From contig PBAR01000011.1 of the NCBI GenBank assembly GCA_002718285.1, positions 150,886 through 184,835 on the forward strand: DNA of 33,950 nucleotides, written 5' to 3'. This DNA is from Fidelibacterota bacterium (GTDB taxonomy: Bacteria > Marinisomatota > Marinisomatia > Marinisomatales > UBA1611). The translations under genes were made by a program, and so were the position numbers. Positions 19,047-33,950 of this stretch are shown here, in pieces; position 1 is the stretch's first letter; each line of letters begins with the position of its first letter. Below the pieces are notes generated by a model, which made no database searches, was not told the origin of the DNA, and saw only the letters and a list, made by a program, of their open reading frames with translations.

Positions 19047-20159
19047 TTATTTTTTAATCAGGCCATTACAGGAAGAAATAGATTTTTCGACAAATTTTAC
19101 CATCTCTTTATCATCTTTTATTGTTTCGTCCATAGCTTCATTTTTAAAGTAAAGCATGTTGACCGCATTCTCGATTGCAATACCCGAACTCTCTAAAACA
19201 GCCTGGCTCTGGGCTATCGCATTTAACATGCCATCTTGATCAGAATATAATTCATCCAGCGGTCTTTCGGGATCTGCATCTCCCAGGCGATCTAGTTTGC
19301 GTTTTATATATTTCATGTTTTCCTGGAGATAGGATATATTGGTCAACGGTTTTTCTTTATCTGCAATATTTAAATCTGTCACATTTAAATATCTCCCTTC
19401 CCGACCGCATGAATATAAATATGGTCCTTCTTCAGACTGCTTCATCATCGGACGCGTCATCATAGTGCTGCCGCTAGTGTAAATCAAGTCAGCTTTGGAA
19501 AATTCGTTTGGCAGCTTCTTGTAGCTTTCTCTTGCACTATTAACCAACATTACCAAAACATCAACCTGACTACGAATCTGATCAATTACCCTGCGACCAG
19601 AAACCAAATAATCATCCACCGCTATAGAAAGGGTCGTGTCGGATACAAGGCTGGTCAAACCGATCACGCCAATTGTAAGGCCCTGGCGTTTTACTATATG
19701 ATACGGTTTAAAAACAAGTTTATTGTTGTCCGTATAGCGTAAATTGGCAGAAATAAAGGGGATAGTAGATTTGCGCTCGGACTCAATAAGAAAATCTAAA
19801 CCCGCAGACAGTTCGTATCTCCCCACATTTATCGCATCACAGCCTATTTTTTCGTATCCTTTTAAAATCGCATCCGCCCGAAATTGTTCTGATAATCGAT
19901 TGGTTTCATTGATTTCCGGTGTAGAAAAAAAAAGATCTCCAGCATCCAGAACCACTGGATTGCGTCCTTCATCTCGCATAGAGTTTATTGCAACAAGCTT
20001 TCTGGACAGACCGCCCAGAGGTTTTTTCTTTCATCCGCAGGGGTCTAATTGACCATGAACGCTTCCTGTAACAACTAAGGTGACTCTTGCCTGGGCGCTT
20101 ACAAAAGAACTGGCCCTTATTAAAAAACAAAATAAAACTACAAGGAGCCGAAGGGTCAT
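19047..20159 (-). CDS. Candidate selenoprotein: exported metallophosphatase (5'-nucleotidase)-family protein with a Cys-Gly-Sec motif
   Basis: Reading through one in-frame TGA at 20031-20033 gives a 370-aa protein. A normal reading would start at Met61 (19979) and give only 310 aa. The 60 residues gained hold a signal peptide (MTLRLLVVLFCFLIRASSFVSA) and TGSVHGQLDPCG-U-KKKPLGGLSRK, the first motif of a UshA-like metallophosphatase domain. From memory, relatives have PCGC followed by a GGL-R stretch here, so TGA stands where Cys is expected (U43). A SECIS-like hairpin lies 11 nt downstream. VVLDAGDLFF (about 69-78) keeps the second metal motif. However, the D of the D-x-H motif is Ser (TGSVH) and the NHE motif is GRYE, so phosphatase activity may be lost. 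The C-terminal third is helical and charged. The ATG directly follows the TAA of the thioredoxin-like gene, so translation is coupled. An inactivating mutation is the alternative, but the hairpin argues against it. Confidence 0.85.
20001..20019 (-). promoter_or_regulatory. Bacterial SECIS-like hairpin just after the in-frame UGA
   Basis: On the transcript, 11 nt after the UGA, UCUGGGC pairs with GUCCAGA (seven pairs, one G-U wobble) around the five-base loop GGUCU. The loop begins 18 nt after the UGA. I recall the same loop sequence and distance for the E. coli fdhF SECIS, which binds SelB. It lies inside the reading frame, as bacterial SECIS elements do. Confidence 0.82.
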
Positions 20160-20792
20160 TTATTCTTCTGCTAAGAGCTCATCAATAACGGCGGTTAATT
20201 CTCCCTCAAAGTCTTCTCCTTCATCAAACCCTTTCTTTGCCAGGCGTATAATGCGGTATTTATCAATTACGTAAAGTCTGGGAAGCGTCTTTGCTCCATA
20301 TCTTTTTTTAGCAACACCGCGATTATCATTTAAAATTGTCATGGAGATGCCTTTCTTTTCCAAAAACGGCCCCGCCTTTGGAACATTCTCTAGGCCCTTT
20401 ACGGTGCGTGTTGCTTCTGTGATATCAATAAGAAAAAATTTTATCTTATCATCTTTATATTTATCATATAGATTCTGAAGATGAGGAAGCTCTTTCATAC
20501 AGGGCTTACACCAAGTTGCAAAAAAACTTAACACTACAACATGTCGGTCAGGTTGAGTCATAGGTTTTTTAAGTCTTTTTCCTTTTTCTTCAGTCCATGT
20601 TTTCAAAAACTCAAACTTTCCAGGTCCTACCATTAGGGCCCAGGACGGAGCAAGGTCTCCTGCTTTCAGACCAGGGTCTTTTGTGGTGTCATCAGGAACA
20701 ACTGCGACTTCACCGCTTTTACCTTCCTGCGCACTGGCTGCCATTCCTAAAAAAAGAAAAATGCCTAATAATGTTTTAAGTGTTCTAATCAT
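20160..20792 (-). CDS. Exported TlpA/ResA-like thioredoxin-fold protein
   Basis: This 210-aa protein starts with a signal peptide (LLGIFLFLGMAASAQ, cut near residue 21) and carries a thioredoxin fold. VVVLSFFATWCKPCMKELP (residues 85-103) contains the redox pair Cys95 and Cys98 in WCKPC. TLPRLYVID (169-177) has the cis-Pro at 171. TlpA/ResA-like proteins reduce or oxidise thiols outside the cytoplasm, for example in cytochrome c maturation or in repair of exported Cys proteins. Its TAA stop is followed at once by the ATG of the candidate selenoprotein. I infer that it may reduce the Cys-Gly-Sec centre of that protein; the sequence alone does not prove this. The C-terminal tail is acidic (GFDEGEDFEGELTAVIDELLAEE). 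Confidence 0.92.
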   Translation of the reverse strand: MIRTLKTLLGIFLFLGMAASAQEGKSGEVAVVPDDTTKDPGLKAGDLAPSWALMVGPGKFEFLKTWTEEKGKRLKKPMTQPDRHVVVLSFFATWCKPCMKELPHLQNLYDKYKDDKIKFFLIDITEATRTVKGLENVPKAGPFLEKKGISMTILNDNRGVAKKRYGAKTLPRLYVIDKYRIIRLAKKGFDEGEDFEGELTAVIDELLAEE

Positions 20793-20817: not shown

Positions 20818-21675
20818 TTAGTTTAATACAAACATGATACGGCAGTTTTTTAACAGACTGGCTGATCGATCTGCCGATGCCAGTTTCCCAGCATCAGAAT
20901 TGCTTATGATCACATCTGTTTTTGCTGTACCTGATGCAGATGCAGCCCTCAAAATTAACGGATTCCCCTGTACCCTTGAATCTTTCTTTGCCTGTTCCAG
21001 TGTTTTAGCATATCCTACTACACCATTGGTCGCTGCATAGTCTCTGTTATACTGACCAGGCCCATAAATTATAGAACCGCTCTGGTTTAATACCTGAGGC
21101 GACATAGCAGGCCGCAACCCTAACCCGCTCCCGTCAATGATAATTCCCGTAACCCCACCAGATACGGAAATAGTTCCAGCGCCATCCTGGGATTGTATCA
21201 CAGCGGAACCTCCTCCTGTTTCAGTTACAGGGTCATAATTTAACACAGGAGCTTTTTCCGCCATGGGAAGCAAAACTCTGGAGATATCTCTCATATTAAC
21301 TTCATAAACAACTTCCACTGAAGTGTCACTTAAATATTTTGGATCACCAACTTTCCTGGCGCCCCGGATAGCGCCTTGCACCTGCGTCTTTATTACATCA
21401 TCAAACATGGCACCAGAAACGGTAGTCTCAGATGTTACATTGACCCCGTTAACAATTTCTATAAGCTGCCTCAAAGCATCCTGCTTTGCTATGCGCATTG
21501 CAGAACGCCGTGCCTGACCAGCATTGATTACGTTGGTTGGTATAAACCCTATGCCTGTAGCCTGAATAGTACGGTTTTCATAGTTAACACTACCCCTTTC
21601 AAAAATATCGCCTATAAAATTATCCTGCCCAAATAATAATGTCACAACAAAAACCATTAGGATAAAATTTTTCAT
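20818..21675 (-). CDS. LPP20-like exported protein
   Basis: This 285-aa protein has a signal peptide (MKNFILMVFVVTLLFG). Residues 39-80 (ATGIGFIPTNVINAGQARRSAMRIAKQDALRQLIEIVNGV) form the typical helix of LPP20/FlgT-like domains, which begin with ATG-G and an ARR-A-x-DA helix. EVVYEVNMRDIS (121-132) is the following strand. A second part, GIIIDGSGLGLRPAMSPQVL (about 174-193) with SIIYGPGQYN, resembles the C-terminal module I have seen attached to LPP20-type proteins in which a predicted glycine-rich loop is conserved. The function is not known; relatives are outer-membrane or surface-associated. A GAGGAG ribosome site precedes the start. It follows the FlgT/CsgG-like gene by 11 nt and shares the same first domain, suggesting a pair working together. 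Confidence 0.72.
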   Translation of the reverse strand: MKNFILMVFVVTLLFGQDNFIGDIFERGSVNYENRTIQATGIGFIPTNVINAGQARRSAMRIAKQDALRQLIEIVNGVNVTSETTVSGAMFDDVIKTQVQGAIRGARKVGDPKYLSDTSVEVVYEVNMRDISRVLLPMAEKAPVLNYDPVTETGGGSAVIQSQDGAGTISVSGGVTGIIIDGSGLGLRPAMSPQVLNQSGSIIYGPGQYNRDYAATNGVVGYAKTLEQAKKDSRVQGNPLILRAASASGTAKTDVIISNSDAGKLASADRSASLLKNCRIMFVLN

Positions 21676-21686
21676 ATTATACTCCT

Positions 21687-22778
21687 CTACTGCCCTACTT
21701 CTGCAGTAATTCTATTTCCAGTAATTCCTGTTACTTTTATTGTGAATCCATCTGGCTGTGTTTTGCTTAGTCCCATAGCCAGGTCCATTGCCTTTCCTTC
21801 AAACTCCACTTCGTATTCTGCAACGCCTTCATTTAGGCTTTTTGAAAAAGCATTTCGAACACCATCAACTGTCTGTGCTTTTAAAAATGTTTCAAACGCT
21901 GTATAGGACATAAAGTCTGCATTCTTTAAAACAATATAGCACTTGATGAAATTTGATTGTGCCGTGCTCCATTTTTCAATAAGCTGCCGGATTATCTCTT
22001 TGCCCAGCTTTCCAGCTGCTTCATTCATCGCATTCACACCGGCAGTGGAAGGAGAAATATGGGGCTTCTTTCCATGAGCATTTGGTACTACGGCAAGAAT
22101 TTCACCAGTATCTACGCGCACTATTTTACCATTAATATCTGCTTGGCCGGATGTCATATTATAAAATATGCCACCGGAAGATATTTTAGCTGTTCCAATC
22201 ACAATAATATCTGCTCCAAGCTGGCTCGCAACCTTAGCGGCGGCAGAAACATTGCCAGAAAGAGCTTCTTCATAGTCAGGTTTTCCCTTTAGCGCCTGCA
22301 CCAATTGTCGGTCAACCACATCAAACCCTTTATCATAGAAAGCACTAAGAAGCTTTGTCTCTGCAAAGTCAGTTGCAATATTATCAATCAGATTTTGTTC
22401 ACGTACAAGAAAAATAATTTTTGGCCTGTTCATAGAGTTCAATAGAGTTTGCAGCGCAGATTCATCCTGCATAACTTCATCAAGAATGGCGGTAACTTCA
22501 GCAGAAATTGTTACTTCCCAGTTTCCGTCCGGACCCTTGTTTTCATCTACCACTTTAAATGTTTTCACAAAACCCTGTGCTTTAGAATATATATTATCCG
22601 TGAGTGTTGTTGCTGTCACTACAGTTTCAGAAGATATGTATGCACCCAACCCCACCTCTACCGCATCTCTTTTTGCCTGTTCTATGGCTGCATCCTTGGT
22701 AAGGCCGTAGCCTACACCCTCAACTGTTTCCGCATACAGCGGGAAGAAAAGAACAATGATAATAAATAATTTTTTCAT
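21687..22778 (-). CDS. FlgT/CsgG-like exported protein
   Basis: This 363-aa protein has a signal peptide (MKKLFIIIVLFFPLYA). Residues 19-52 (VEGVGYGLTKDAAIEQAKRDAVEVGLGAYISSE) are the ARR/KRDA-type helix of the FlgT N-terminal domain. A strand segment NWEVTISAEV follows (86-95). Residues about 118-250 resemble the CsgG/FlgT middle domain: PKIIFLV, GFDVVDRQLV (151-160), KVASQLGADIIVIGTAKI (182-199), then a strand-rich region to VRVDTGEILAVVP. CsgG forms an outer-membrane secretion pore for curli; FlgT supports the flagellar basal body. No flagellar or curli genes are in the window, so the name is structural only. The final 100 residues hold another domain (AVEFEGKAMDLA-like strands) that I cannot name. 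It is 1 nt downstream of the TPR/SLH gene. Confidence 0.75.
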   Translation of the reverse strand: MKKLFIIIVLFFPLYAETVEGVGYGLTKDAAIEQAKRDAVEVGLGAYISSETVVTATTLTDNIYSKAQGFVKTFKVVDENKGPDGNWEVTISAEVTAILDEVMQDESALQTLLNSMNRPKIIFLVREQNLIDNIATDFAETKLLSAFYDKGFDVVDRQLVQALKGKPDYEEALSGNVSAAAKVASQLGADIIVIGTAKISSGGIFYNMTSGQADINGKIVRVDTGEILAVVPNAHGKKPHISPSTAGVNAMNEAAGKLGKEIIRQLIEKWSTAQSNFIKCYIVLKNADFMSYTAFETFLKAQTVDGVRNAFSKSLNEGVAEYEVEFEGKAMDLAMGLSKTQPDGFTIKVTGITGNRITAEVGQ

Positions 22779-22779
22779 G

Positions 22780-23922
22780 TTAAAATGTCATCCTAAGTGA
22801 ATTCTGGAATGAACGAATGCTTAGCAGGGCGTCTGCGCCTGAGACAGCTCCTGCCGGATCAAAACGGCCTGTGATCATATCAGCCTGCATAAAGCCGCGT
22901 TCAGCGCAAAGAGCCATTGCATTATAACCTGGGTGGCTACTGGGAACATCTTTAAAGCGGGAAGGGCTTTCACCAAAATACCGCATCTCAAGATCTGTAT
23001 CTCCAGTAACAACAGTTAAGATGCGTTGAATCGCCATGCAGTATTCTGCCCGGTTAACAGACTCATCAGGGTAAAAGGGTTGCCCAGGACCTCCTTCCAT
23101 GATGCCGTATTTAGAAAGCTCATTTATCCAGGTTTCTGCCCAATGGCCTTTTGAGTCAGGCGGCGCGCCTGAGCCTGATAAGCGCATCTGATCCGGTGTC
23201 TGAAAACCAGAAGCAGCGGATGTTTGTTTTTCCATAAGAACGCTTATTTTTAACTCTTCCGCAAAGAGAGCGGCCAAATCAGCTCGGGTAATTTTTTCAT
23301 AAAGTGCCACTTTTTTACCCATGGATGTTCCAGGCATTGCACGTACAATTTTCTGGCTTGTCTGCCACATTTTGTCTGCTTTACTGCCATAATCGCCCTT
23401 CATTTCCACCACCATTCGAAACTGGTTTTCCGCATCACTGAATTTATGCTGATATAGATATAGCTCGCCTGTATAGTACGTTGCGCCTTCATGGTTCTTC
23501 TTTCTTTTTAAGGCTTTTTTAAGAAGTTTTTCCGCCGCCTTATACCACTTCTTTTCCTGGTTCCTAAGATCGATCCATACCCAGGCACAAAGCGTCAAAA
23601 TATCTGCATCTTTCGGAGCTAAACCCTCAGCTTTACCTGCATGTTTTTTTGCTTCTTTTTTATTATTCATGTTTGCGTGGGCGACTCCCATTCCTGCATA
23701 TGCAGGGGCAAATTTTTTATCCAGATCAACCGCCCGCTGAAAAGACTTCAGGGCGTCCTCATACTGTTTCATTTCCACATGCCGCATACCGGCTTTGTGA
23801 TGATATTCCGGGTTGTCCATTTCGCTGGCGGGCTTCACGGCGCACCCCGGTAAATGTAAAAACAAATAAAAAACACCTGTGAAAAATATCAGCCGCTGAA
23901 TAATTATTATTATTTTCTTCAT
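22780..23922 (-). CDS. TPR and S-layer-homology (SLH) domain lipoprotein
   Basis: This 380-aa protein has a lipoprotein signal with lipobox LPGC (Cys27). Tetratricopeptide repeats span about residues 40-106 (AGMRHVEMKQYEDALKSFQ, GVAHANMNNKKEAKKH) and 126-175. From about 209 it carries SLH-like segments: EKITRADLAALFAEELKIS (209-227), then DSKGHWAETWINELSKYGIM (256-275) with FYPDESVNRAEYCMAIQRIL. A third near the C-terminus is RFKDVPSSHPGYNAMALCAERGFM. SLH repeats bind cell-wall-linked polymers in Gram-positives, and in some Gram-negative phyla they link outer membrane to peptidoglycan. A lipid-anchored TPR/SLH protein could act as an assembly or anchoring partner for the surface protein encoded just upstream. 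A GAGAAG ribosome site lies in the 15-nt gap before the start. Confidence 0.8.
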   Translation of the reverse strand: MKKIIIIIQRLIFFTGVFYLFLHLPGCAVKPASEMDNPEYHHKAGMRHVEMKQYEDALKSFQRAVDLDKKFAPAYAGMGVAHANMNNKKEAKKHAGKAEGLAPKDADILTLCAWVWIDLRNQEKKWYKAAEKLLKKALKRKKNHEGATYYTGELYLYQHKFSDAENQFRMVVEMKGDYGSKADKMWQTSQKIVRAMPGTSMGKKVALYEKITRADLAALFAEELKISVLMEKQTSAASGFQTPDQMRLSGSGAPPDSKGHWAETWINELSKYGIMEGGPGQPFYPDESVNRAEYCMAIQRILTVVTGDTDLEMRYFGESPSRFKDVPSSHPGYNAMALCAERGFMQADMITGRFDPAGAVSGADALLSIRSFQNSLRMTF

Positions 23923-23937
23923 AACTTTCTTCTCTTT

Positions 23938-26900
23938 TTATTTTAGGAGCAGCATTTTAATGGTTTTCGTAAGGCCTTTTGATCTGAACTGAGCAAAATA
24001 AACACCGGCGCCTACAGGTTGCCCGTTTTTATTTAATCCGCGCCATGCAATGCTGTGATACCCAGCTTGCATATCCGCACTTAAAAGACCTGCAACCTCT
24101 TTGCCCAGAATATCGTAAATAATTATTTCTACAGGCCCGTTCTCCGGAATCTCATAACGGACATGGGTAACCGGATTAAAAGGATTGGGGTAATTTTGTC
24201 TCAGGGCAAACTCATGAGGCACTGCAATAATATCCAGCACTTTCACCCCGCTGCTTATAACGCTCCTGTCTTTTCCGTAGCTTATGTAGTGTATGTCTAT
24301 TGCTGCGGGGTTTTTATCAAGGGATATTGTTTCCAGGATTACCTTCTTTTCCATTCTCTCTTTTAAGAATGCCTTCTCAACCAAAACAATTCCATTTTCT
24401 TTTTCTTTTTTGCTGAGCTTGATCTCGTCTTCAATTTGAGAATTGTCCGGCTGCATTATTATGTCTCTGGCTTCTGCTGGATATTTTACAGCAACTTGCA
24501 GCGCAACCGTTCCCTGTGGAGGCATGATAACAATGCCGTTTCCATCCTGTACGGCAATAAGATCCGGACCTTCCTGATTTCTTCCGGCAATCACCAGTGG
24601 TGTCGCGTGAGACCAATGCCACATTCTTGTAAAGGCCATAACATCACGAAGATCTAGTGCCCCGTCAAGTGAAACTGTAACCTGTGGAACCGTACCAGTA
24701 AACGGACCGAGCTCCCCAGTTAGATCGGTGTTATTCCATACTGTAACAAACTCGGACAAGTCCTGGATGTCAATTGTAAGATCCCGGTTATAGTCTGCCA
24801 GCAGATCTGTATAAAAAGTATAATCAAGCGTCAAAGAGTCTTTTCCAGAGTAATCATCAACAAAGGTAATAATATTGAAAGTGTCAAGACTTGCAAACGG
24901 ACCTAAAAACTCAATAGAGATTGAGCTGTCGAGCATTGTCGTGGATATTGACCCGGAAACATTTCCCGAAATTTCCACCGAACTGGACTTAACATCTTCA
25001 GAGAATGAATAGGATAATACGGGAATTCCATCCATGGGAAGGTATGATTCGTTTTCTAGCGTGCTTGTCAGCAATTCAAGGTCTATAAGATCAACGGTAA
25101 TGCCGTTTGACACAGAAATATTAGATACATTACCCGCAAAATCTGTCGCACGAACCGCTGCATAATATGTTTGTGCATTTTCAAGCAGGAGCCCTTCTTC
25201 CAGAAAGAATTCTGTATCTGGTCCTGCGGATACCCAGCCCAGCACTTCCGCTCCACCTAAATCGGTTATTCCTATGGAATACTCAAAATATTCAATACCG
25301 CTAATATCGTCACTAAACCCGGACCATGAAGAAATAAGAGTATCGGATGATGATGTAAATGCCAGATCTTCAATCTGTCCATCAATCACTTCACCGTTCA
25401 GAGGCGGTGTCAAATCAATCAGAACCCCGTCTCCGCTTACAACATCCGAAAGGTTTCCGGCAACATCCCTGGCTCTTACGTTTGCAAAATAAGCGGCGCC
25501 GTTTTGTAGACCAAGATTAAAAAGCTCATCAGAAAAAATATTCGGGTTGTCTATAACCTTCCATGAAACAATATCGTCGCTTCCTTCAACGGTCCCTAAA
25601 GATGTCTCAAAATATTCCACACCGGAGAGCGCGTCTTGTCCGCTCCAGCTGATAATAATTGTATCCGCCTGATTCATATAATCCAAGTCAAGGCCTTCAA
25701 CACCGGCAGTTTCTGATTCAATAACCCCCGTAACATCGGGAAGAACAAGATCCACAGTCAGCCCGTTTGAAAAAGAAGGCGGTCCTATATTGTCTACGCT
25801 GTCTATCCCCCTCACGCCTATATAATACTGACTTCCGTGACTGAGAGGAAGTCCCTGTATTAGTACCTGGGTTTCTAATCCGATATTTGTCCATGAGAGT
25901 ATGTTTACACCTTCCGGAGAGTCTCCCACAGCATACTCATAGTTTTTTATGCCGCTGAGGGGATCATTAAAACTATTCCAGCTTGCTTCAAGTTCAGATG
26001 AAGAAATAACCCACTCTATGTCTTCCGAAATTCCATCAGAAACATATCCTATTTCCGGACCGGTCTGATCTGAAACCACACCATTGGAGCTTGCAGTCTG
26101 AGACGCGTTTTGAGCACGGTCATAGGCCTTTACTGATAAATAATAAGCCTGTCCGCTGATCAGCGAAAGCCCGTTGAACACTACTTGCGTATCAAGAGAA
26201 ACACTGGTCCACGGAACAACATCCCATGACCCTATATTTGTTCCAGCCGCCGCATGATAATAAGAAAGGCCGCTTAGACCATCATCAAATCCTGTCCAGT
26301 GTCCTTCCAATGAGTTTCCTGATGCAGTAAAACTAATATCAGCACCCTGCCCGTCTGTTACTCCGCCGGCTACCGGCGGAGTTATATCAACTGTAATACC
26401 GTCAGTGCTTACAGCGCTGGAACGGTTTCCCGCCGCATCATATGCACGAATGCTGCTATAGTATGTTATTCCTTCTGATAGACTTAACCCAGTAATGGTT
26501 GCGCTGTTGTTTGCACCGGCATTTGTCCAGGAAACCATATTAGAATCTCCAGGGACTGTGCTGACCGCATACTCAAAGTAATCCATTTGCCGGTCTCTGG
26601 TGTCGGTTGCTGTCCAGTGTACGCTAAGAGAGTTTGTAGACGATTGCCAGTCCAGGTCTTCCTGGCTGCTTCCATCCAGAGGGATGCCCACCGTCGGAAG
26701 AAGAACATCTACGGTAATACCGTCCGATATTGCGACGGAACTTTGATTTCCCAAAACATCCGTGGCCCGCACGGAAACATAGTAGGTAGATCCACCTATA
26801 AGCTGTTGGTTTTGAAGAGTAAAAAAAGAATCTCTGGCAACAGGTGTCCATCCTGTAAACTGAGTTCCTCCTGGCGTTATTCCGATAGCATACTCATAGG

Positions 26901-29900
26901 CATTAAAAGACGGGATCCCGCTGAGGGGATCGTTAAAATGCCAGTAAGCAGAAATTGTTTCCGTTGAATTGGTCCAGTCATCATCTTCTTCGCCCAGCCC
27001 GTCAAACACGAAAACATTATCCGGCCCCTGGGTGTCTACCACAACCCCGTCTGATGATATGGGATCAGAAACGTTTCCCGCTTCATCTCCTGCTCTTACG
27101 TTTACAAAGTAAGCGACTCCGCTTGTAAGCGACATATCGCCCATGCTAAATGACGTGCTTAGACCGTTATCTACCCAATCCAGAATATTTGTATTTCCGG
27201 CAGCCGTACCTAACGAGACTTCGTATTTTGTTATTTGTGTTGCTTCTTCCGTGAAAGCAGGCCAGTTGGCAGAAAGTGCCGTGTCCGATGCTGTATATGA
27301 AATATCATCACCTGATCCGTCATTAACAACAGTTCCTGTCGGCGGAGAAATATCAATAACAACGCCGTCACTGCTCGCAACAGCAGAAACATTTCCAGCA
27401 ATATCCCATGCACGAACGTTCAGATAATAAGTCTGTCCATCAGCAAGACTCAGACCTGTTATTATATCTGTTGTACCCGTTCCGATATTGGTCCATGGGC
27501 TTGCATCTATTCCGCCAGGGTAAGTTCCTACTGAGTGCTGATAATATTCAATCCCTGAATTATCATCATGCCCACTCCAGAAAACCTGAATCTGGGTTGT
27601 GCTGTTTTGAAAATCCATGTCTATAATTTCACCTTCAAAAGGAGGGGTGTGAATATCATCGCTCCAGAAGGCTCCGGAAATATTACCATTGTTTCCGTTA
27701 TTGGTTTGATCTGTTAAAACCGATCCGGAACCGTCGCTGAAGTCCCAGTGGGCAACAAGGTTGTTAATCTCTGTCGGAGAGTGTTCTCCGGCCATGGTGT
27801 TAATTGTGTTTTCAGATAAAGCAGAATTCCAGATTGCCAGGCTGGATATATTACCGGAAAACGAATTTGTCCCCTGGCCACCCTGATCACCAATGCGCAG
27901 AGATGTGGGGTCTCCGGCCCAGCCCCCTCCATTGCTAATGGCAGGTTGAGAGCTGTAGTAAGGACCGTCTTGAACGCCGTTTACATAGAAATAAATTTCC
28001 AGCTCATTTCCAATATCCTCAACGGTTACAGCCATATGCTGCCACTGATCAAACTCATATGTAATTGTAGAGTTTATTGTTTCCCAACAACCGCTCTGAT
28101 CCCAATAAACAAGATTCTGTGCATTGTTGGGCGAACAATTATTCGGGCCGTCCCAGGTTAGCGCAAACCCATACCCGTATTGTCCTTTCATTAGAATGGT
28201 GCTTTCACCATCATGAATTGTAGGATACAGCCAAGTGGCTATAGTCAGGGCTTTTCCGCTTTCCATCGGGTTGTTAGAAACACCGTCCCCCAGATCAAGC
28301 GAGCCACTATGGGGAATTTCAACAAAACCATTTGTACCGTCAAAGACAAGAGAATAAGTGCTTTGAGCTTGCGGCTCTGTGACATATCCTTCAACAGCAT
28401 CATAGACAACCGGGGGAGTTGCATCTACGGTTACCCCGTCAGTATATACTGTGTCTGAGACTTGGGAGTCCTGATCTATGGCGCGAACACCTACGGAATA
28501 CGACTCCCCGTCAATCAGGTTGAGACCTGAAATAACCGCAGATGTATCTGTGCCGTTCGATGTCCAGGGAAGGACATTGTCCACACCATATAAAACCGCA
28601 AGTGCGCTGACCCGTATCTGATCAAAACAGGCATACCAGTCATTTCCGCTTCCGTTATCATAAGCTTCAAAAACAAAATTACCGCTCTTACCGGAGAATG
28701 ACGGCATAAGGATTCTTACCTCCTGCCACTCTGATGTCGGGGAATGATTGTGGTCTATGCTCCATAGAAGAGTTCTGTCGGGGGCACCGGAGGCCTCAAA
28801 ATAAACACTTATTCCATCTCCGTTATTAAGCATAACGCTTCCTTCGTTTGAATAGTCAATTGCGCGATAATAAAAGAAAAGGCTATCCCCTTCATTAACC
28901 GGCCCAACTTCAGGAGATATTAAGGCAGCTATGTCTCCGACAACATATACATTGACTCGAACATATCGGCTGTTATTAACCCCGTTGTTTCCCTGTACAT
29001 CAAAATTTCTTGTCGATCCATCCGATGTGAAAGATGTCTGTGTCCAGCCATCGGGAATCGACGATGAAAAGGATGAATTAAAATCTTCAGTCAAATAAGA
29101 AGCTCCAGCATCTGAAACAATATCCAGATCTCCAACAGCATATTGATAGCTAAGTATATCGTTATCTGTAAACCCCCACCAGTTAGCAGATAGAGAGCTC
29201 GTGGAATTGGACCAGGTTATGTCTGCGCCGGGACCCAGCCCGTCAACAACAGACCCGGCCTGGGGTCTTTGGCTGGAATATACTGACTCAAAGGCTCCAA
29301 GGTCAGGACTTGAACCAACCGGATCAGGGCGCGGATTTCCATATAGGTCTTTGACGGGAGCATTTATTGGTGAGCCTGCACCAATACAGGGAGAATAGTC
29401 CGATAAGCGATAATCACCGGATACCGTATCTTTAAAAACATTACTCCACCGTTCCCTGCTTAACGAAAGGTTTGTTGCTCCTCCTATATCGGGAGAAACG
29501 GCGGAGTGGGTTATGTCATAGGGGCCTTCGAAAGCCTGTTCAGAGCGGCCTTTAATTATACAATTTTCAAATTGAATAATAGAACCACTCACAAGGTCAC
29601 CACCGTTGAAAACCGAGCCGCCATAGTTTATAATTGTTGAGTTTCTTATAAGCGGGCTGCAGGAGTTATTCCAATAAAAACCGTTTTTACTGCCTTCGAT
29701 ATAATTATAAAATAAAATATTTTCCAGGATCGCATTTGCACCGTGAAACTTTATAGAATTATTGCTTTGGTTATCATAAAATCTACAGTTGGCAATTCTT
29801 GGAGCGCCGCCGGAAGCATCTACGGAAGCCGCATCATAAGAGCTTCCTGAAAAAGAAAATCCGGTAATCTCGCTGTTTGTATTGCTAAGTGTTAGTGTGT

Positions 29901-32550
29901 GTGTCGATGGTTGATTGGGAACAATGTGAGTTTCAAATGGCCCCGAAAAACTCGTCAAAACAACATTCTTGCCGCTAATATAAAAATTTTCTGTATATGT
30001 GCCTGGATAAACAAGAACCGTGTCTCCATCCATAATATCACTATTATTGATAGCGCTCTGGATTATTTGATAATCTCCAGTTCCATCTTGCTTTACCGAA
30101 AAAGAAACATTGTCTCTAATGCTGCGATTGTTTTCAATGGCCCCTATATCCGGGTTGGTCCCATTTGGCGTGGGCCTGGAGTTGCCAAAAATATCGGTTG
30201 ACGGAGCCATTATGGTTGAACCATAATAAGTGTCTGAAACAGTGCCTTTCCCAATGGCACTGCTACCGGATCTGAGGGCATAGTTGTTTTGATCAATATT
30301 TACAAAGGGGTCCGCAGATGTAAAAACATTTCCAGAAGAGCGCTTGATTTTGCTATTATCGCTGAAGGATTCACTTGTATAGTTATTGAGGAAAACAGTT
30401 CTTCCGTTGTTTATGGATATTTGCTCATAATAGGTAAAAAAGCTGTCTGCAGAACTACTATAACCTTTGTTTTGAGAAATAATTGAATTCATTATTAACA
30501 CACTGTCTAAGGCTGATGACATGTTTATATCAAGACCCATGGCATAAAGATCAGAAACGTTTTTATTGTTTGCTATTGTCGTGTTAACCACAATAGCCGT
30601 ATCAGAACCATCAAAACTTAAACCTGCGCTTGTAGTTTGAGTATTGTTGTTGCTTATGATAGTGTTGCTTATTTCAATTTTTGTAGTATGGTTGATATAA
30701 ACCGGTTGTCCGTAATATGATGTGTTATTATAAATGTTTGAATTGGTTATTTTAACCAGTCTGTTTGTTTGTGAGTTTCCGGTTACTCTAATTCCCCCGC
30801 CCGTTCCCTCATGGCCAGTGTTGTTTTTTATAGTAACATGATCCACAAATAATGTGTCCAGGTCAAATGCAAATATTGCTCCGGCAGCAAAACAGGGACT
30901 ACATGGAACATAAACATCTTCGTCAAAATTCCCACCGGTAACGGTGACCCCTGACAAATACATGCTTGCTTTGTCTTTGTCCCATGTATCAATATGAATT
31001 GTGGGGCCCTGGTTGTTACCGTTTATAACCGTGGCACTTATATAAGATGTGTCTTTAGTTGTTAAATACCGGCTTCCAATTGTAACAGACAGCCCTCGCA
31101 GCAGGGAAACATTCTCACTGTAAGTGCCCTGGGCCAATAAAACCGTATCTCCGGAAGATGCAATATCAAGAGCACGTTGAATTGTTAATAGTGGCGATTC
31201 TTCAGTCCCAATATTGGAGTCGCTTCCGGCTGTAGACACATTGATTATATTTAATTTTTCCGCGTAGCTGCTTTCCAGGGCGCCCATATCGGGTGATGAA
31301 CCTGATGGGTTGGGGCGATCAACATCATTAATATCTTTTGTTGGAGCAAGAAGAGTATTACCATCATAGTGTGCGGATGCTATTCCGTTTCCAACGGCAC
31401 CACTGAATATCCCCAGGCTGTAATCTCCGCCAGCAGAGTTAACAAAAGGGCTGGTGGTGCTAAAAAAATTGCCGCTGGATCTTTTTATTCTATCTGAACC
31501 GCTAATACCGGGGTTTACGTAGTTATTCAGCATTACTATTTTTCCGTTGTAGAATTCTACGCTACTGTACATTAAGTCGTATCGGTCTTCGTTTGAATTA
31601 TACTGATAGTTTTGCGAAACTATGTTATTCATAAACAGCACACTGTCAGAGCCGGATGACAAGCTAATTAGAAACGTTTGGCTGCTGTTTTCTATCTTGT
31701 TGTTTGCTACGGTATTATTAACAATTTTCATATGCTCAACATCATTTGAAATCGAAACCACTACAGCTGCATAACTGGATTCATTTCCTTCAACCAGGGT
31801 GTTGGTCATTTCAAAATCATCAGTGTTTATTAAAACGTTATAATAATCAGGTGATATGTTGTCAGCTATCTTTGTGTCCGCAATTTTTACATAGTTAAAA
31901 TTATTGGTGTGGACACCCCCAGATGTGCTGGTACTTTCAGTGCTGTTGTTTCTAATTACCGTATGGTCCAAAACAAGAGTGTCTCCTTGATAACCATAGA
32001 TCCCGCCGCCAATCACACAACTGGAACAGTGATAGGGGTCATCTTCATCTACATCTATTGCGCCACCGTTGGTGAGTGTTAATCCAATAAGATTTAATGA
32101 TGTGGAACTATTGTTCGTGTAAATAACCGGTCCGTTTTCATTTCCATCAATTATGGTGCTGCTAATGTAGGATGTGTCCTGAGTTGTTAGGTATTGGCTT
32201 GCCAGCGTTATGTTTGTTCCCGATGTGTGGGTAATGTTTTCCGTGTAGGTTCCAGAAGCAACCAGGACCGTATCGCCGCCAGACGTGGCGTTAATGCCTT
32301 TCTGGACAGTTAAAAACGGGGATGCTGATGTTCCCACATTAGAATCACTCCCGTTTTTGCTCACATACGCGACCGTTAGTTTTTTATTCAGGCTGTTTTC
32401 AATAGCCCCCATATCGGGAAGCGCACCTCGGGAAAGACCATTGATGTCTTTTGTCGGCGCAGAAACTGTGTTACCATCATAAAATACAGATGCGAGACCT
32501 CCCGCAATTGCATGGCTGAACGGCGTTAAGCCATAGTTGTCTTTAGACAT
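23938..32550 (-). CDS. Giant multidomain surface protein with type IX secretion tail; 3' part of a frameshifted gene
   Basis: This 2870-aa reading frame is the downstream part of a gene whose 5' part lies at 32553-33950. Domain order (approximate residues): end of beta-helix 1 with a choice-of-anchor-Q-like ending PDMGAIE (1-51); beta-helix 2 (56-425); beta-helix 3 (430-804); beta-helix 4 (806-1087). Next come an Ig/FN3-like module that holds an inserted choice-of-anchor-J-like domain (1152-1320), a LamG/concanavalin-like domain (1398-1630), eight more Ig/FN3-like modules of about 105-110 aa (1634-2485), an Ig-like domain, a dockerin-like Ca-loop segment with DYNRDLTIDIQDL (about 2582-2645), and a 90-aa sorting tail beginning FALRQNYPNPFNP (2781-2870). 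The beta-helices are pectin-lyase-like but no catalytic residues are assigned; adhesion or glycan binding is more likely. The Met at 32550 is not a real start: homologous sequence continues upstream in this frame and there is no ribosome site. Confidence 0.9.
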   Translation of the reverse strand: MSKDNYGLTPFSHAIAGGLASVFYDGNTVSAPTKDINGLSRGALPDMGAIENSLNKKLTVAYVSKNGSDSNVGTSASPFLTVQKGINATSGGDTVLVASGTYTENITHTSGTNITLASQYLTTQDTSYISSTIIDGNENGPVIYTNNSSTSLNLIGLTLTNGGAIDVDEDDPYHCSSCVIGGGIYGYQGDTLVLDHTVIRNNSTESTSTSGGVHTNNFNYVKIADTKIADNISPDYYNVLINTDDFEMTNTLVEGNESSYAAVVVSISNDVEHMKIVNNTVANNKIENSSQTFLISLSSGSDSVLFMNNIVSQNYQYNSNEDRYDLMYSSVEFYNGKIVMLNNYVNPGISGSDRIKRSSGNFFSTTSPFVNSAGGDYSLGIFSGAVGNGIASAHYDGNTLLAPTKDINDVDRPNPSGSSPDMGALESSYAEKLNIINVSTAGSDSNIGTEESPLLTIQRALDIASSGDTVLLAQGTYSENVSLLRGLSVTIGSRYLTTKDTSYISATVINGNNQGPTIHIDTWDKDKASMYLSGVTVTGGNFDEDVYVPCSPCFAAGAIFAFDLDTLFVDHVTIKNNTGHEGTGGGIRVTGNSQTNRLVKITNSNIYNNTSYYGQPVYINHTTKIEISNTIISNNNTQTTSAGLSFDGSDTAIVVNTTIANNKNVSDLYAMGLDINMSSALDSVLIMNSIISQNKGYSSSADSFFTYYEQISINNGRTVFLNNYTSESFSDNSKIKRSSGNVFTSADPFVNIDQNNYALRSGSSAIGKGTVSDTYYGSTIMAPSTDIFGNSRPTPNGTNPDIGAIENNRSIRDNVSFSVKQDGTGDYQIIQSAINNSDIMDGDTVLVYPGTYTENFYISGKNVVLTSFSGPFETHIVPNQPSTHTLTLSNTNSEITGFSFSGSSYDAASVDASGGAPRIANCRFYDNQSNNSIKFHGANAILENILFYNYIEGSKNGFYWNNSCSPLIRNSTIINYGGSVFNGGDLVSGSIIQFENCIIKGRSEQAFEGPYDITHSAVSPDIGGATNLSLSRERWSNVFKDTVSGDYRLSDYSPCIGAGSPINAPVKDLYGNPRPDPVGSSPDLGAFESVYSSQRPQAGSVVDGLGPGADITWSNSTSSLSANWWGFTDNDILSYQYAVGDLDIVSDAGASYLTEDFNSSFSSSIPDGWTQTSFTSDGSTRNFDVQGNNGVNNSRYVRVNVYVVGDIAALISPEVGPVNEGDSLFFYYRAIDYSNEGSVMLNNGDGISVYFEASGAPDRTLLWSIDHNHSPTSEWQEVRILMPSFSGKSGNFVFEAYDNGSGNDWYACFDQIRVSALAVLYGVDNVLPWTSNGTDTSAVISGLNLIDGESYSVGVRAIDQDSQVSDTVYTDGVTVDATPPVVYDAVEGYVTEPQAQSTYSLVFDGTNGFVEIPHSGSLDLGDGVSNNPMESGKALTIATWLYPTIHDGESTILMKGQYGYGFALTWDGPNNCSPNNAQNLVYWDQSGCWETINSTITYEFDQWQHMAVTVEDIGNELEIYFYVNGVQDGPYYSSQPAISNGGGWAGDPTSLRIGDQGGQGTNSFSGNISSLAIWNSALSENTINTMAGEHSPTEINNLVAHWDFSDGSGSVLTDQTNNGNNGNISGAFWSDDIHTPPFEGEIIDMDFQNSTTQIQVFWSGHDDNSGIEYYQHSVGTYPGGIDASPWTNIGTGTTDIITGLSLADGQTYYLNVRAWDIAGNVSAVASSDGVVIDISPPTGTVVNDGSGDDISYTASDTALSANWPAFTEEATQITKYEVSLGTAAGNTNILDWVDNGLSTSFSMGDMSLTSGVAYFVNVRAGDEAGNVSDPISSDGVVVDTQGPDNVFVFDGLGEEDDDWTNSTETISAYWHFNDPLSGIPSFNAYEYAIGITPGGTQFTGWTPVARDSFFTLQNQQLIGGSTYYVSVRATDVLGNQSSVAISDGITVDVLLPTVGIPLDGSSQEDLDWQSSTNSLSVHWTATDTRDRQMDYFEYAVSTVPGDSNMVSWTNAGANNSATITGLSLSEGITYYSSIRAYDAAGNRSSAVSTDGITVDITPPVAGGVTDGQGADISFTASGNSLEGHWTGFDDGLSGLSYYHAAAGTNIGSWDVVPWTSVSLDTQVVFNGLSLISGQAYYLSVKAYDRAQNASQTASSNGVVSDQTGPEIGYVSDGISEDIEWVISSSELEASWNSFNDPLSGIKNYEYAVGDSPEGVNILSWTNIGLETQVLIQGLPLSHGSQYYIGVRGIDSVDNIGPPSFSNGLTVDLVLPDVTGVIESETAGVEGLDLDYMNQADTIIISWSGQDALSGVEYFETSLGTVEGSDDIVSWKVIDNPNIFSDELFNLGLQNGAAYFANVRARDVAGNLSDVVSGDGVLIDLTPPLNGEVIDGQIEDLAFTSSSDTLISSWSGFSDDISGIEYFEYSIGITDLGGAEVLGWVSAGPDTEFFLEEGLLLENAQTYYAAVRATDFAGNVSNISVSNGITVDLIDLELLTSTLENESYLPMDGIPVLSYSFSEDVKSSSVEISGNVSGSISTTMLDSSISIEFLGPFASLDTFNIITFVDDYSGKDSLTLDYTFYTDLLADYNRDLTIDIQDLSEFVTVWNNTDLTGELGPFTGTVPQVTVSLDGALDLRDVMAFTRMWHWSHATPLVIAGRNQEGPDLIAVQDGNGIVIMPPQGTVALQVAVKYPAEARDIIMQPDNSQIEDEIKLSKKEKENGIVLVEKAFLKERMEKKVILETISLDKNPAAIDIHYISYGKDRSVISSGVKVLDIIAVPHEFALRQNYPNPFNPVTHVRYEIPENGPVEIIIYDILGKEVAGLLSADMQAGYHSIAWRGLNKNGQPVGAGVYFAQFRSKGLTKTIKMLLLK
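23941..24210 (-). other. Type IX secretion C-terminal sorting domain (90 aa) of the giant protein
   Basis: The tail opens with FALRQNYPNPFNP, continues with VRYEIPENGPVEIIIYDILG and GYHSIAWRGLNKNGQPVGAG, and ends VYFAQFRSKGLTKTIKMLLLK. This is the beta-sandwich tail (type A) that directs cargo through the type IX secretion system and is usually removed on attachment to the cell surface. It implies that the host has Por/Spr-type secretion genes elsewhere. Confidence 0.9.
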
Positions 32551-33470
32551 GTCTAAGAACGGGTCCGCCTCTGTAAAAATATTCCCGACTGATCTTTTGA
32601 CTCTCTGTCCTGCCCAACATGGTAATACAGACCTGTGTAGTTATTTATTAACACCACTTTACCGGTAGAAAATCCCATATCGCGATTATTTACATCATAA
32701 ACTTCATCGGAGTTGTCCCACGAAGAGTTTTGGGCAACGATAGTGTTCATGATCAATATACTGTCCAAGCTGGAGCTGGTAACTACATAGAGCCCGTCTG
32801 TGCACCCTTGACAATCATTTTTATTATTAGCGATAGTACAGTTTATAATTTGTATTTCATCAGAGTATATATTTGCAGCCCCATAACCTTTGGTTGTGTT
32901 TCCTTCAATCAGTGTGTTTGTCATTTTAAACCACTTGGCACCACCAACATTAAGGCCGCCGCCTTGAGTGTCCGGTTGTCTGTTATCAGATATTTTTGAA
33001 TTTTCAATTCTCACATAATCAACCCCACTAGTATAAACCCCTCCTGATGTACCACAACAATCTTCACTCGTATTGTTTCTAACAACCACATGATCTATTA
33101 TAAGAGTGTCTAAGCCCACTACATGAAGACCCCCTCCATAATATTCACCTTTTGCACCATTTGTCAGGGTAAGCCCAACAAGATTCAGAGACCCTGAATT
33201 CATATGCATGTATAAAACGACATCGTCAGCATCTCCATTAATGATTGTGCTGCTGATATAGGATGTGTCCTGAGTTGTCAGGTACAGACTTGCCAGTGTT
33301 ATGTTTTTATCGCTTGTACAGGTTATGTTTTCTGTATATATCCCTGAAGCCACCAAAATAGTATCACCATTTATTGCTGCGTTAATAGCTCTTTGGATCG
33401 TCAAGAACGGTGAAGATTCAGTTCCGTTATTTGAATCAGAACCGGTTTTTGATACATGCCAAACAGGACC
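29290..33470 (-). repeat. About 1.1-kb beta-helix module repeats
   Basis: Related modules follow each other, each opening with SKxGSDSN.GT..SP.LT.Q and a GDTVL/ILVASGTYTENI stretch and closing with a choice-of-anchor-Q-like DI.G..RP.P.GS.PDMGA.E phrase. Some parts are similar even in DNA: the word ggatgtgtcctgagttgt occurs at both 32170 and 33260 (1090 nt apart), and a diverged copy lies near 31046. The fourth module (about 30140-29290) is more diverged and shorter. Confidence 0.8.
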
Positions 33471-33950
33471 GCCAGAAAAATCGAAGACCCGTACATGACC
33501 AGATCTACCGCCGTTACCATCGTTATCGGGTGCTCCTATGGCTACGCGGTCACCCGATGAATTGATCGAAACAGATTGACCTGAGTGGTCATAAGAGGCT
33601 TCTCCATCAATGTCCATTTTAAGCCGGGTCCAGCTCCCGCTGCTATATTCATAAACACGTACGTGACCAGAGTTATTGCCATTACCATCATTATATTTTA
33701 CACCTATGGCTACGCGGTCACCCGATGAATTAACCGAAACAGATTGGCCTGAGTAGTCAGCAGAGGCTTCTCCATCAATGTCACTTCCCATCTGGGTCCA
33801 GCTCCCGCTGCTATATTCATAAACACGTACGTGACCGGAGTTGGTTCCATTACCTTCGTTATCGGGTGCTCCTATGGCTACGTGGTCACCCGATGAATTG
33901 ATCGAAACAGAGTAGCCTGACTCGTCACCAGAGGCTTCTCCATCAATGTC
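32553..33950 (-). CDS. 5' part (partial) of the giant surface protein: FG-GAP-like repeats plus first beta-helix
   Basis: The frame is open from the right window edge; the apparent Met at 33791 is internal, since the upstream 53 codons give the same repeat. It encodes three 56-aa tandem repeats (DIDGEAS..SG.SVS.NSSGDRVAIGAP..), which resemble FG-GAP/integrin-type beta-propeller blades. These are followed by WHVSKTGSDSNNGTESSPFLTIQRAINAA and a pectin-lyase-like parallel beta-helix. The frame then goes wrong: NNYTGLYYHVGQDR is followed by an unrelated tail and a TAG at 32553-32555. The other frame continues the expected RVKRSVGNIFTEADPFLDMS, matching the RIKRSSGNFFSTTSPFVN of the next module. 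This and the following frame are therefore one gene interrupted by a 2-nt shift. The signal peptide must lie beyond the window. Confidence 0.85.
   Translation of the reverse strand, partial: DIDGEASGDESGYSVSINSSGDHVAIGAPDNEGNGTNSGHVRVYEYSSGSWTQMGSDIDGEASADYSGQSVSVNSSGDRVAIGVKYNDGNGNNSGHVRVYEYSSGSWTRLKMDIDGEASYDHSGQSVSINSSGDRVAIGAPDNDGNGGRSGHVRVFDFSGGPVWHVSKTGSDSNNGTESSPFLTIQRAINAAINGDTILVASGIYTENITCTSDKNITLASLYLTTQDTSYISSTIINGDADDVVLYMHMNSGSLNLVGLTLTNGAKGEYYGGGLHVVGLDTLIIDHVVVRNNTSEDCCGTSGGVYTSGVDYVRIENSKISDNRQPDTQGGGLNVGGAKWFKMTNTLIEGNTTKGYGAANIYSDEIQIINCTIANNKNDCQGCTDGLYVVTSSSLDSILIMNTIVAQNSSWDNSDEVYDVNNRDMGFSTGKVVLINNYTGLYYHVGQDRESKDQSGIFLQRRTRS
32601..32606 (-). other. (AG)3 run, site of the frameshift in the giant surface-protein gene
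   Basis: On the coding strand the sequence reads gac-agagag-tcaaaag. Removing one AG unit gives GAC AGA GTC AAA AGA TCA (D R V K R S) and joins the two reading frames exactly as the homologous modules predict. A dinucleotide slip, in the cell or in sequencing or assembly, explains the break. Confidence 0.75.
33469..33950 (-). repeat. 168-bp in-frame tandem repeats (56 aa)
   Basis: The coding-strand word gacattgatgga begins at 33950, 33782 and 33614, an exact 168-nt period. The units share long near-identical stretches (for example the codons for SSGDRVAIG and SGHVRVYEYSSGSWT). The last unit decays after about 145 nt into the beta-helix region. The array continues past the window edge, so the copy number is unknown. 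Confidence 0.9.

Follow-up and report, generated by a model that had tools for sequence, protein, structure and literature searches.

Selenoproteins built on a UshA-like domain were described in the 2008 survey of the Global Ocean Sampling (GOS) selenoproteome, the available part of which lists a family 'COG0737, UshA-like' with a CxU motif (cysteine and selenocysteine, Sec or U, separated by one residue) and counts 76 Sec-containing and 92 Cys-containing sequences (PMC2398784). The family is repeated in the accessible portions of two reviews (PMC9312934; PMC13188914), the second of which gives NF041198 together with a second UshA-like family, NF049981, while PMC1088965 contains no occurrence of UshA, COG0737 or nucleotidase. 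The gene considered here lies on a 33,950-nucleotide stretch of contig PBAR01000011.1 from a Fidelibacterota bacterium (this whole stretch is called the window below) and encodes a protein with an in-frame UGA at codon 43, which is almost certainly decoded as Sec, this being the best explanation of the evidence assembled from sequence comparison. An earlier note on this DNA, made from its letters alone, had proposed a possibly new selenoprotein family. That suggestion is not supported in view of the 2008 survey, the two reviews and NF041198: the protein belongs to a short Neomarinimicrobiota subfamily within the UshA-like CxU kind, and the family is not new. A literature search combining selenoprotein with metallophosphatase found nothing, as the known family runs under the name UshA-like, and the open-access literature, within the portions searched, held no description of the Neomarinimicrobiota branch or of its rhodanese/MauE/TlpA neighbourhood. 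The features of the locus are collected in Table 1.

Table 1. Coordinates of the selenoprotein gene, its parts and its upstream neighbour in the window.
Feature	Positions	Strand	Remarks and basis
Selenoprotein gene, UshA-like, Cys-Gly-Sec	19047..20159	minus	370 residues, Sec43
In-frame TGA, Sec43	20031..20033	minus	TGA in 44/44 close loci; Cys in 12 uninterrupted homologues
Cys41 codon (CGU motif, partner of Sec43)	20037..20039	minus	C in 45/45 Sec and 12/12 Cys rows
Bacterial SECIS hairpin	20001..20019	minus	Fold, covariation, synonymous-codon controls, published criteria
Probable signal peptide, about residues 1-23	20091..20159	minus	Sequence only; N-terminus of low confidence in structure model
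Truncated frame of 310 amino acids (aa), called for this gene and many relatives	19047..19979	minus	Open reading frame list and lengths of relatives
TlpA-like secreted thioredoxin (WCKPC), adjoining upstream gene, likely redox partner	20160..20792	minus	Pfam; below-cut-off ResA/DsbE-like NCBIfam matches

The in-frame UGA and its downstream hairpin

Translation of the frame gives 42 residues, TGA, 327 residues and TAA, 371 codons in all, with the motif in the context DPCGU and the start ATG (20157-20159) abutting the TAA (20160-20162) of the upstream gene. The earlier note had the position of the TGA, the frame that it splits and this adjacency right, and had quoted the flanking peptides TGSVHGQLDPCG and KKKPLGGLSRK exactly; its central claim, a selenoprotein with a Cys-Gly-Sec motif, was supported by every sequence test run. 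A search of the window for read-through candidates (an in-frame TGA preceded by 30 or more open codons and followed by 60 or more) returned six. Because each of the other five is overlapped by a larger frame on the opposite strand, and the TGA of the selenoprotein gene has the strongest downstream fold of the six (-11.5 kcal/mol), its presence within the gene is not attributed to chance.

The TGA is conserved among relatives. A protein search returned 397 of them, and among the 120 matches listed, 86 measure 309-312 aa, as if started after the TGA, and are nameless, hypothetical or listed under a nucleotidase-family name. A genomic scan with one genome per species yielded 56 loci, 44 of them close (L001-L043 and L047) and 12 remote. 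TGA follows Cys-Gly in 44/44 close loci as it does in the window, down to approximately 32% identity, and the residues on both sides of it are conserved; where assigned, these loci belong to Neomarinimicrobiota (Marinimicrobia) and, in one case, to an FCB-group bacterium. The 12 remote loci are of nucleotidase type, and none of the 11 that align over the Sec position has Cys or a stop codon there. Among 18 uninterrupted loci that were read, Cys-Gly-Cys (CGC) was found in 12, while five are motif-less paralogues and one (L079) is a partial sequence. Conservation of the UGA position as Cys in uninterrupted homologues is one mark of membership in a selenoprotein family, and the alignment bears out the expectation of the earlier note that TGA in Sec-type members stands for the second Cys of a CGC motif in Cys-type members.

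Two explanations without Sec were weighed against these data. One treats the TGA as a sequencing error or as the nonsense change of a pseudogene, so that at most the 310-aa part would be made, and the 310-aa form is indeed listed in databases; however, an identical TGA in 45/45 sequences, together with conserved flanking residues and covarying third codon positions (see below), leaves this scarcely credible. Reading of the UGA as tryptophan, as in code 4, would agree with a group of database relatives that have CGW, with Trp at the Sec position (P0039, P0049, P0060, P0065, P0101 and P0113), but is also highly improbable, as the genomic codon is TGA, never TGG, in 44/44 loci and the 12 uninterrupted motif-bearing homologues have Cys, not Trp. 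Furthermore, TGA ends 6 of 19 hand-picked genes of the window, within which 159 TGG codons are used, and TGA is therefore not generally a sense codon here. The Trp-bearing rows that were examined lie on short contigs (approximately 1.2-2.1 kb), for which a metagenome gene caller may choose code 4; they are probable code 4 gene calls and could mislead selenoprotein searches.

Insertion of Sec in bacteria is directed by a Sec insertion sequence (SECIS). For the bacterial element (bSECIS), the available part of PMC13188914 gives a loop of 3-9 nt, a stem of 4-16 bp, a spacing from the UGA of 16-37 nt, a G within the first two loop positions and a minimum free energy (MFE) of -7.5 kcal/mol or lower. 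The window segment agrees with that description in all respects, as a hairpin starting at the 12th base past the UGA has a 7-bp stem, a 5-nt apical loop GGUCU (20008-20012), a UGA-to-loop spacing of 18 nt and an energy of -11.5 kcal/mol. No match to Rfam was found within the window, nor any tRNA gene by ARAGORN.

Over the 54 bases that start with the TGA, no gap is needed to align the Sec genes (45/45), codons 6 and 7 after the UGA are GGC and GGT in 45/45, and codon 8 is CTG in 40/45, whereas further downstream in the same genes GGC and GGT make up 15% and 38% of Gly codons and CTG makes up 13% of Leu codons. GGC stands at the corresponding position in 1/12 CGC homologues, the other 11 having another codon. 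Two third codon positions, columns 18 and 30, pair as GC (21), AU (15), GU (5) or CG (4), with zero mismatches. Across the seven stem pairs 79.5% of cells are paired, compared to a shuffled mean of 74.8%, and the numbers of paired cells and of cells changed on both sides, as well as the covariation score, exceed those of 500/500 shuffles and of every slid version. On a tree built by a quick method without the SECIS region and without the short rows L041, L043 and L047, columns 18 and 30 need 9 changes each but their joint pair state needs only 10, and six independent A/G contrasts were concordant 5.5 times on average and never opposite (median p 0.031, range to 0.125). Finally, a SECIS-like hairpin was found in 45/45 Sec genes, compared to 41% of 4500 synonymous recodings.

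Several results count against SECIS-directed insertion of Sec. With the -7.5 kcal/mol limit imposed, the hairpin is found in only 24/45 Sec genes (the window among them), compared to 15% of recodings; the fold of the window has a shuffle z of only -1.63; and the mean downstream energy is similar in Sec rows (-8.0) and Cys rows (-8.5). Because mean energy fails to separate the two, folding energy alone is not taken as evidence. Pairs changed on both sides (2; 378/500 shuffles as high) and further pair types (7; 349/500 as high) are no more numerous than in shuffles, and 30 of the 44 distinct rows do not pair at the outermost stem position and 15 at the next. RNAalifold recovers only the inner three pairs from the alignment, and the seven-pair hairpin is therefore claimed for the window and not for every member.

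Sec machinery and Sec/Cys alternation in the phylum

In 11 genomes of relatives, matches over cut-off were found to selA in 10, to selB in 9 and to tRNA-Sec in 9 (above 60 bits in each of the 9), compared to 1, 2 and 5 of 14 control genomes. ARAGORN reported tRNA-SeC(tca) in both loci tested, and the genome of the nearest locus (L001 in G001, 68% identity) has selA, selB and tRNA-Sec. The check for Sec machinery that the earlier note had called for has thus come out positive for most of the relatives tested, with the genome of the window itself outside the comparison. That selA, selB and selC of the window's own species are presumed from the genomes of relatives weighs against the Sec interpretation, as does the finding that, over cut-off, G006 is without all three components, G002 without tRNA-Sec and G011 without selB.

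The family profile matched 190 of a broader sample of 199 genomes from the phylum, weak and remote matches included. Of the 199 genomes, selA was found in 147 at E <=1e-20 and in 144 over cut-off, with E. coli the sole control having a match; G051 (E 2.6e-22) was removed from the selA set. Among the matches listed, selA was present in 117 of 123 genomes with a TGA-bearing match, a class in which the TGA position itself was read in a minority, versus 2 of 18 with uninterrupted matches only, a class in which CGC was read in 12 and six genomes were assigned by the label 'none' alone. Two points temper this association: the Fisher p of 2e-14 takes genomes as unrelated, and six TGA genomes have no selA match and G174 also shows TAA, perhaps due to draft status. 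The labels Sec, Cys and motif-less require 4 changes on the tree, on which some Cys rows are long-branched and of uncertain placement.

Two kinds of exceptional homologue were observed. The motif-less paralogues L072-L075 and L078 (in G003, G032, G138, G175 and G190) have neither Cys41 nor Sec43, e.g., GSLQPQKARLDSLGGLARR, and form a single clade beside the Sec-bearing rows; their genomes also carry the TGA form and were counted by it. L076, whose genome (G033) has selA, carries CGC, retains the SECIS-loop codons GGC-GGT and, in part, the metal-site motifs discussed below (GGH and an SH-like His), and has the top NF041198 score of those tested, 237 bits. It may represent an intermediate or a recent change from Sec to Cys.

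These findings bear on an earlier picture of selenium use in the phylum. Table 1 of a 2016 survey lists three SAR406 genomes as orphan SelD, with no other known selenium trait or selenoprotein (PMC5029168). Because genomes of the phylum commonly carry selA, selB and tRNA-Sec, and the present gene is found among them, these listings may be artefactual, reflecting draft genomes and a missed selenoprotein.

The UshA-type domain and its metal site

The read-through protein has no Pfam match at E 0.001, but is matched by NCBIfam models and by fold, having the catalytic-domain fold of the UshA/5'-nucleotidase metallophosphatases, shared with SoxB. Residues 6-367 are homologous to NF041198 (UshA_like_PCGU) with E 5e-61 and 206.8 bits, under the cut-off of 275. 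The match covers model positions 2-381 of 519, and thus approximately 140 C-terminal positions are unmatched. The window protein shares with NF041198 and the GOS family a UshA-type domain with a PCG(U/C) motif, taken as the definition of the model from its name, and Sec or Cys at the same position; it differs in being shorter, below cut-off and without a match to the C-terminal part of the model. None of 11 other family proteins from Neomarinimicrobiota reached the cut-off, ten with a Sec or Cys motif scoring 160-237 bits and one motif-less paralogue 123, some having been trimmed to the matched stretch. No over-cut-off members of NF041198 were found in 9 genomes searched. At E <=1e-60 there was no match in the phylum of G205 (201 genomes) or in that of G207 (398 genomes); no control matched in these searches, and absence is not shown by them. 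With the second UshA-like selenoprotein family, NF049981, the protein has in common the presence of Sec in a UshA-like domain, but that family has a CxxU motif, according to the table of one review, and the window protein scores 28.1 bits against its cut-off of 140.

The two-metal site of UshA and related 5'-nucleotidases is built from the motifs NDxH, GD, GNHE, SH and GGHxH, which supply the ligands. Six canonical homologues retain all of these ligands. In contrast, the Sec rows keep only Asp75, the Asp of GD (45/45), and often His35, the motif-1 His (35/45). The motif-1 Asp is replaced by Asn or Ser in 45/45; in GNHE the Asn is replaced in 44/44 and the His in 43/44 filled rows; the His of SH is replaced by Asn in 42/42 filled rows; and GGH is absent in 41/41 filled rows. 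Alignment thus shows the ancestral two-metal hydrolase site as largely lost from the 370-residue calcineurin-like/UshA-type domain, while Cys-Gly-Sec is strictly kept, in the loop after the first metal-binding strand. The term 'metallophosphatase' used in the earlier note therefore holds for the fold, but not for most metal-ligand and catalytic positions. Compared to the 5'-nucleotidases UshA and CD73, the family has most metal ligands and the catalytic His replaced, is without the C-terminal substrate domain and has gained the CGU motif; compared to the thiosulfohydrolase SoxB, the window protein scores 44 bits against a cut-off of 550 and does not keep the metal site.

It is nevertheless conceivable that the Sec-containing protein still works as a hydrolase that depends on metal, of the phosphoesterase or thiosulfohydrolase-like type, with Cys and Sec serving as metal ligands or as nucleophile. 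The UshA/SoxB fold, the retention of Asp75 and frequently of the motif-1 His, and the appearance of SoxB among the NCBIfam matches, though far under cut-off, speak for such an activity, but replacement of the other canonical ligand positions in the Sec rows, which the six canonical homologues retain in full, makes it unlikely.

Gene neighbourhood and proposed role

Families of neighbouring genes were assigned by Pfam for 8 proteins from three loci and one TlpA-like protein, and were extended to other loci by blastp clusters. MauE is present in 30/45 loci and rhodanese in 28/45, and a membrane rhodanese and a MauE/DoxX protein occur together, on the same strand within three frames of the gene, in 26/45. 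The window, L001 and L005 have a TlpA-like thioredoxin (WCKPC) directly upstream, the copy in the window having Pfam matches to AhpC-TSA/Redoxin. At least one of rhodanese, MauE and TlpA is near the gene in 35/45 loci. In addition, the selenoprotein gene is closely preceded by a gene for a SUI1/YciH translation factor in 23/45 loci (e.g., L004:5656-5979 and L026:5586-5921), which may be related to UGA recoding or be a coincidence, and the partial paralogue L079 has a TlpA match nearby.

Upstream of the TlpA gene, the window encodes two secreted proteins (285 and 363 aa) and a TPR-SLH protein on the minus strand (20818-23922), a block that is syntenic in L001 and L005; the 363-aa protein has weak FlgO/LipL46-like matches. 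Next to this block (23938-32550, minus) lies a gene for a repetitive surface-type protein of 2870 aa with a C-terminal end resembling a sorting tail, directly preceded by a 412-aa frame with similar repeats (32553-33791, minus). Perhaps the two frames belong to a single gene, interrupted by a frameshift or by an error in the sequence.

A periplasmic role in thiol/sulfur redox or sulfur transfer is the most likely reading of the motif and its neighbourhood. There is strong support for SelB and tRNA-Sec inserting Sec at UGA codon 43 under the direction of the downstream SECIS hairpin, and the product is very probably a secreted 370-residue protein of the UshA-type domain. In the periplasm, Cys41 and Sec43 would then make up a centre that switches reversibly to a selenenyl sulfide or persulfide, with the products of adjacent genes re-reducing or feeding it. 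The TlpA-like thioredoxin would be the partner in the window, L001 and L005, and a membrane-anchored rhodanese and a MauE/DoxX membrane protein would be the partners in most other branches.

CxC and CxU pairs can also bind soft metals. A CGU motif that sequesters or carries a metal or metalloid (e.g., copper or mercury), with no redox function, would suit this property and the persistence of Asp75 and often His35, but the neighbours in 35/45 loci are the thiol and sulfur proteins TlpA, rhodanese and MauE, not metal transporters, and a carrier function is accordingly considered improbable. The proposed redox or sulfur role has its own difficulties. The evidence for it consists of the motif and the neighbourhood, and 10/45 loci have none of rhodanese, MauE and TlpA, although five of these are at a contig end. 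Furthermore, tblastn (E <=1e-6) found no such neighbour for any of 17 homologues (12 Cys, 5 motif-less), whose flanks extend a few kb at most, which speaks against a universal link. Taken as a whole, a secreted, SECIS-directed Sec protein with a degraded hydrolase site and a presumed redox or sulfur centre is nonetheless very likely.

The protein is widespread in the marine phylum Neomarinimicrobiota (Marinimicrobia, SAR406) and truncated in public databases; a correct gene call gives it back both its signal peptide and its conserved motif. A more far-reaching proposal can be offered only tentatively, as a possibility with somewhat poor odds: that the phylum at large uses selenium in a periplasmic sulfur/thiol relay built on a dead nucleotidase, its Sec and Cys forms tracking whether the Sec machinery is present or lost. 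In such a relay the Cys-Gly-Sec centre would exchange electrons or sulfane sulfur with the membrane rhodanese and MauE, or with TlpA. If true, this would be a selenium-dependent pathway so far undescribed. With rhodanese, MauE and TlpA genes linked to it, the function of the protein can be tested directly.
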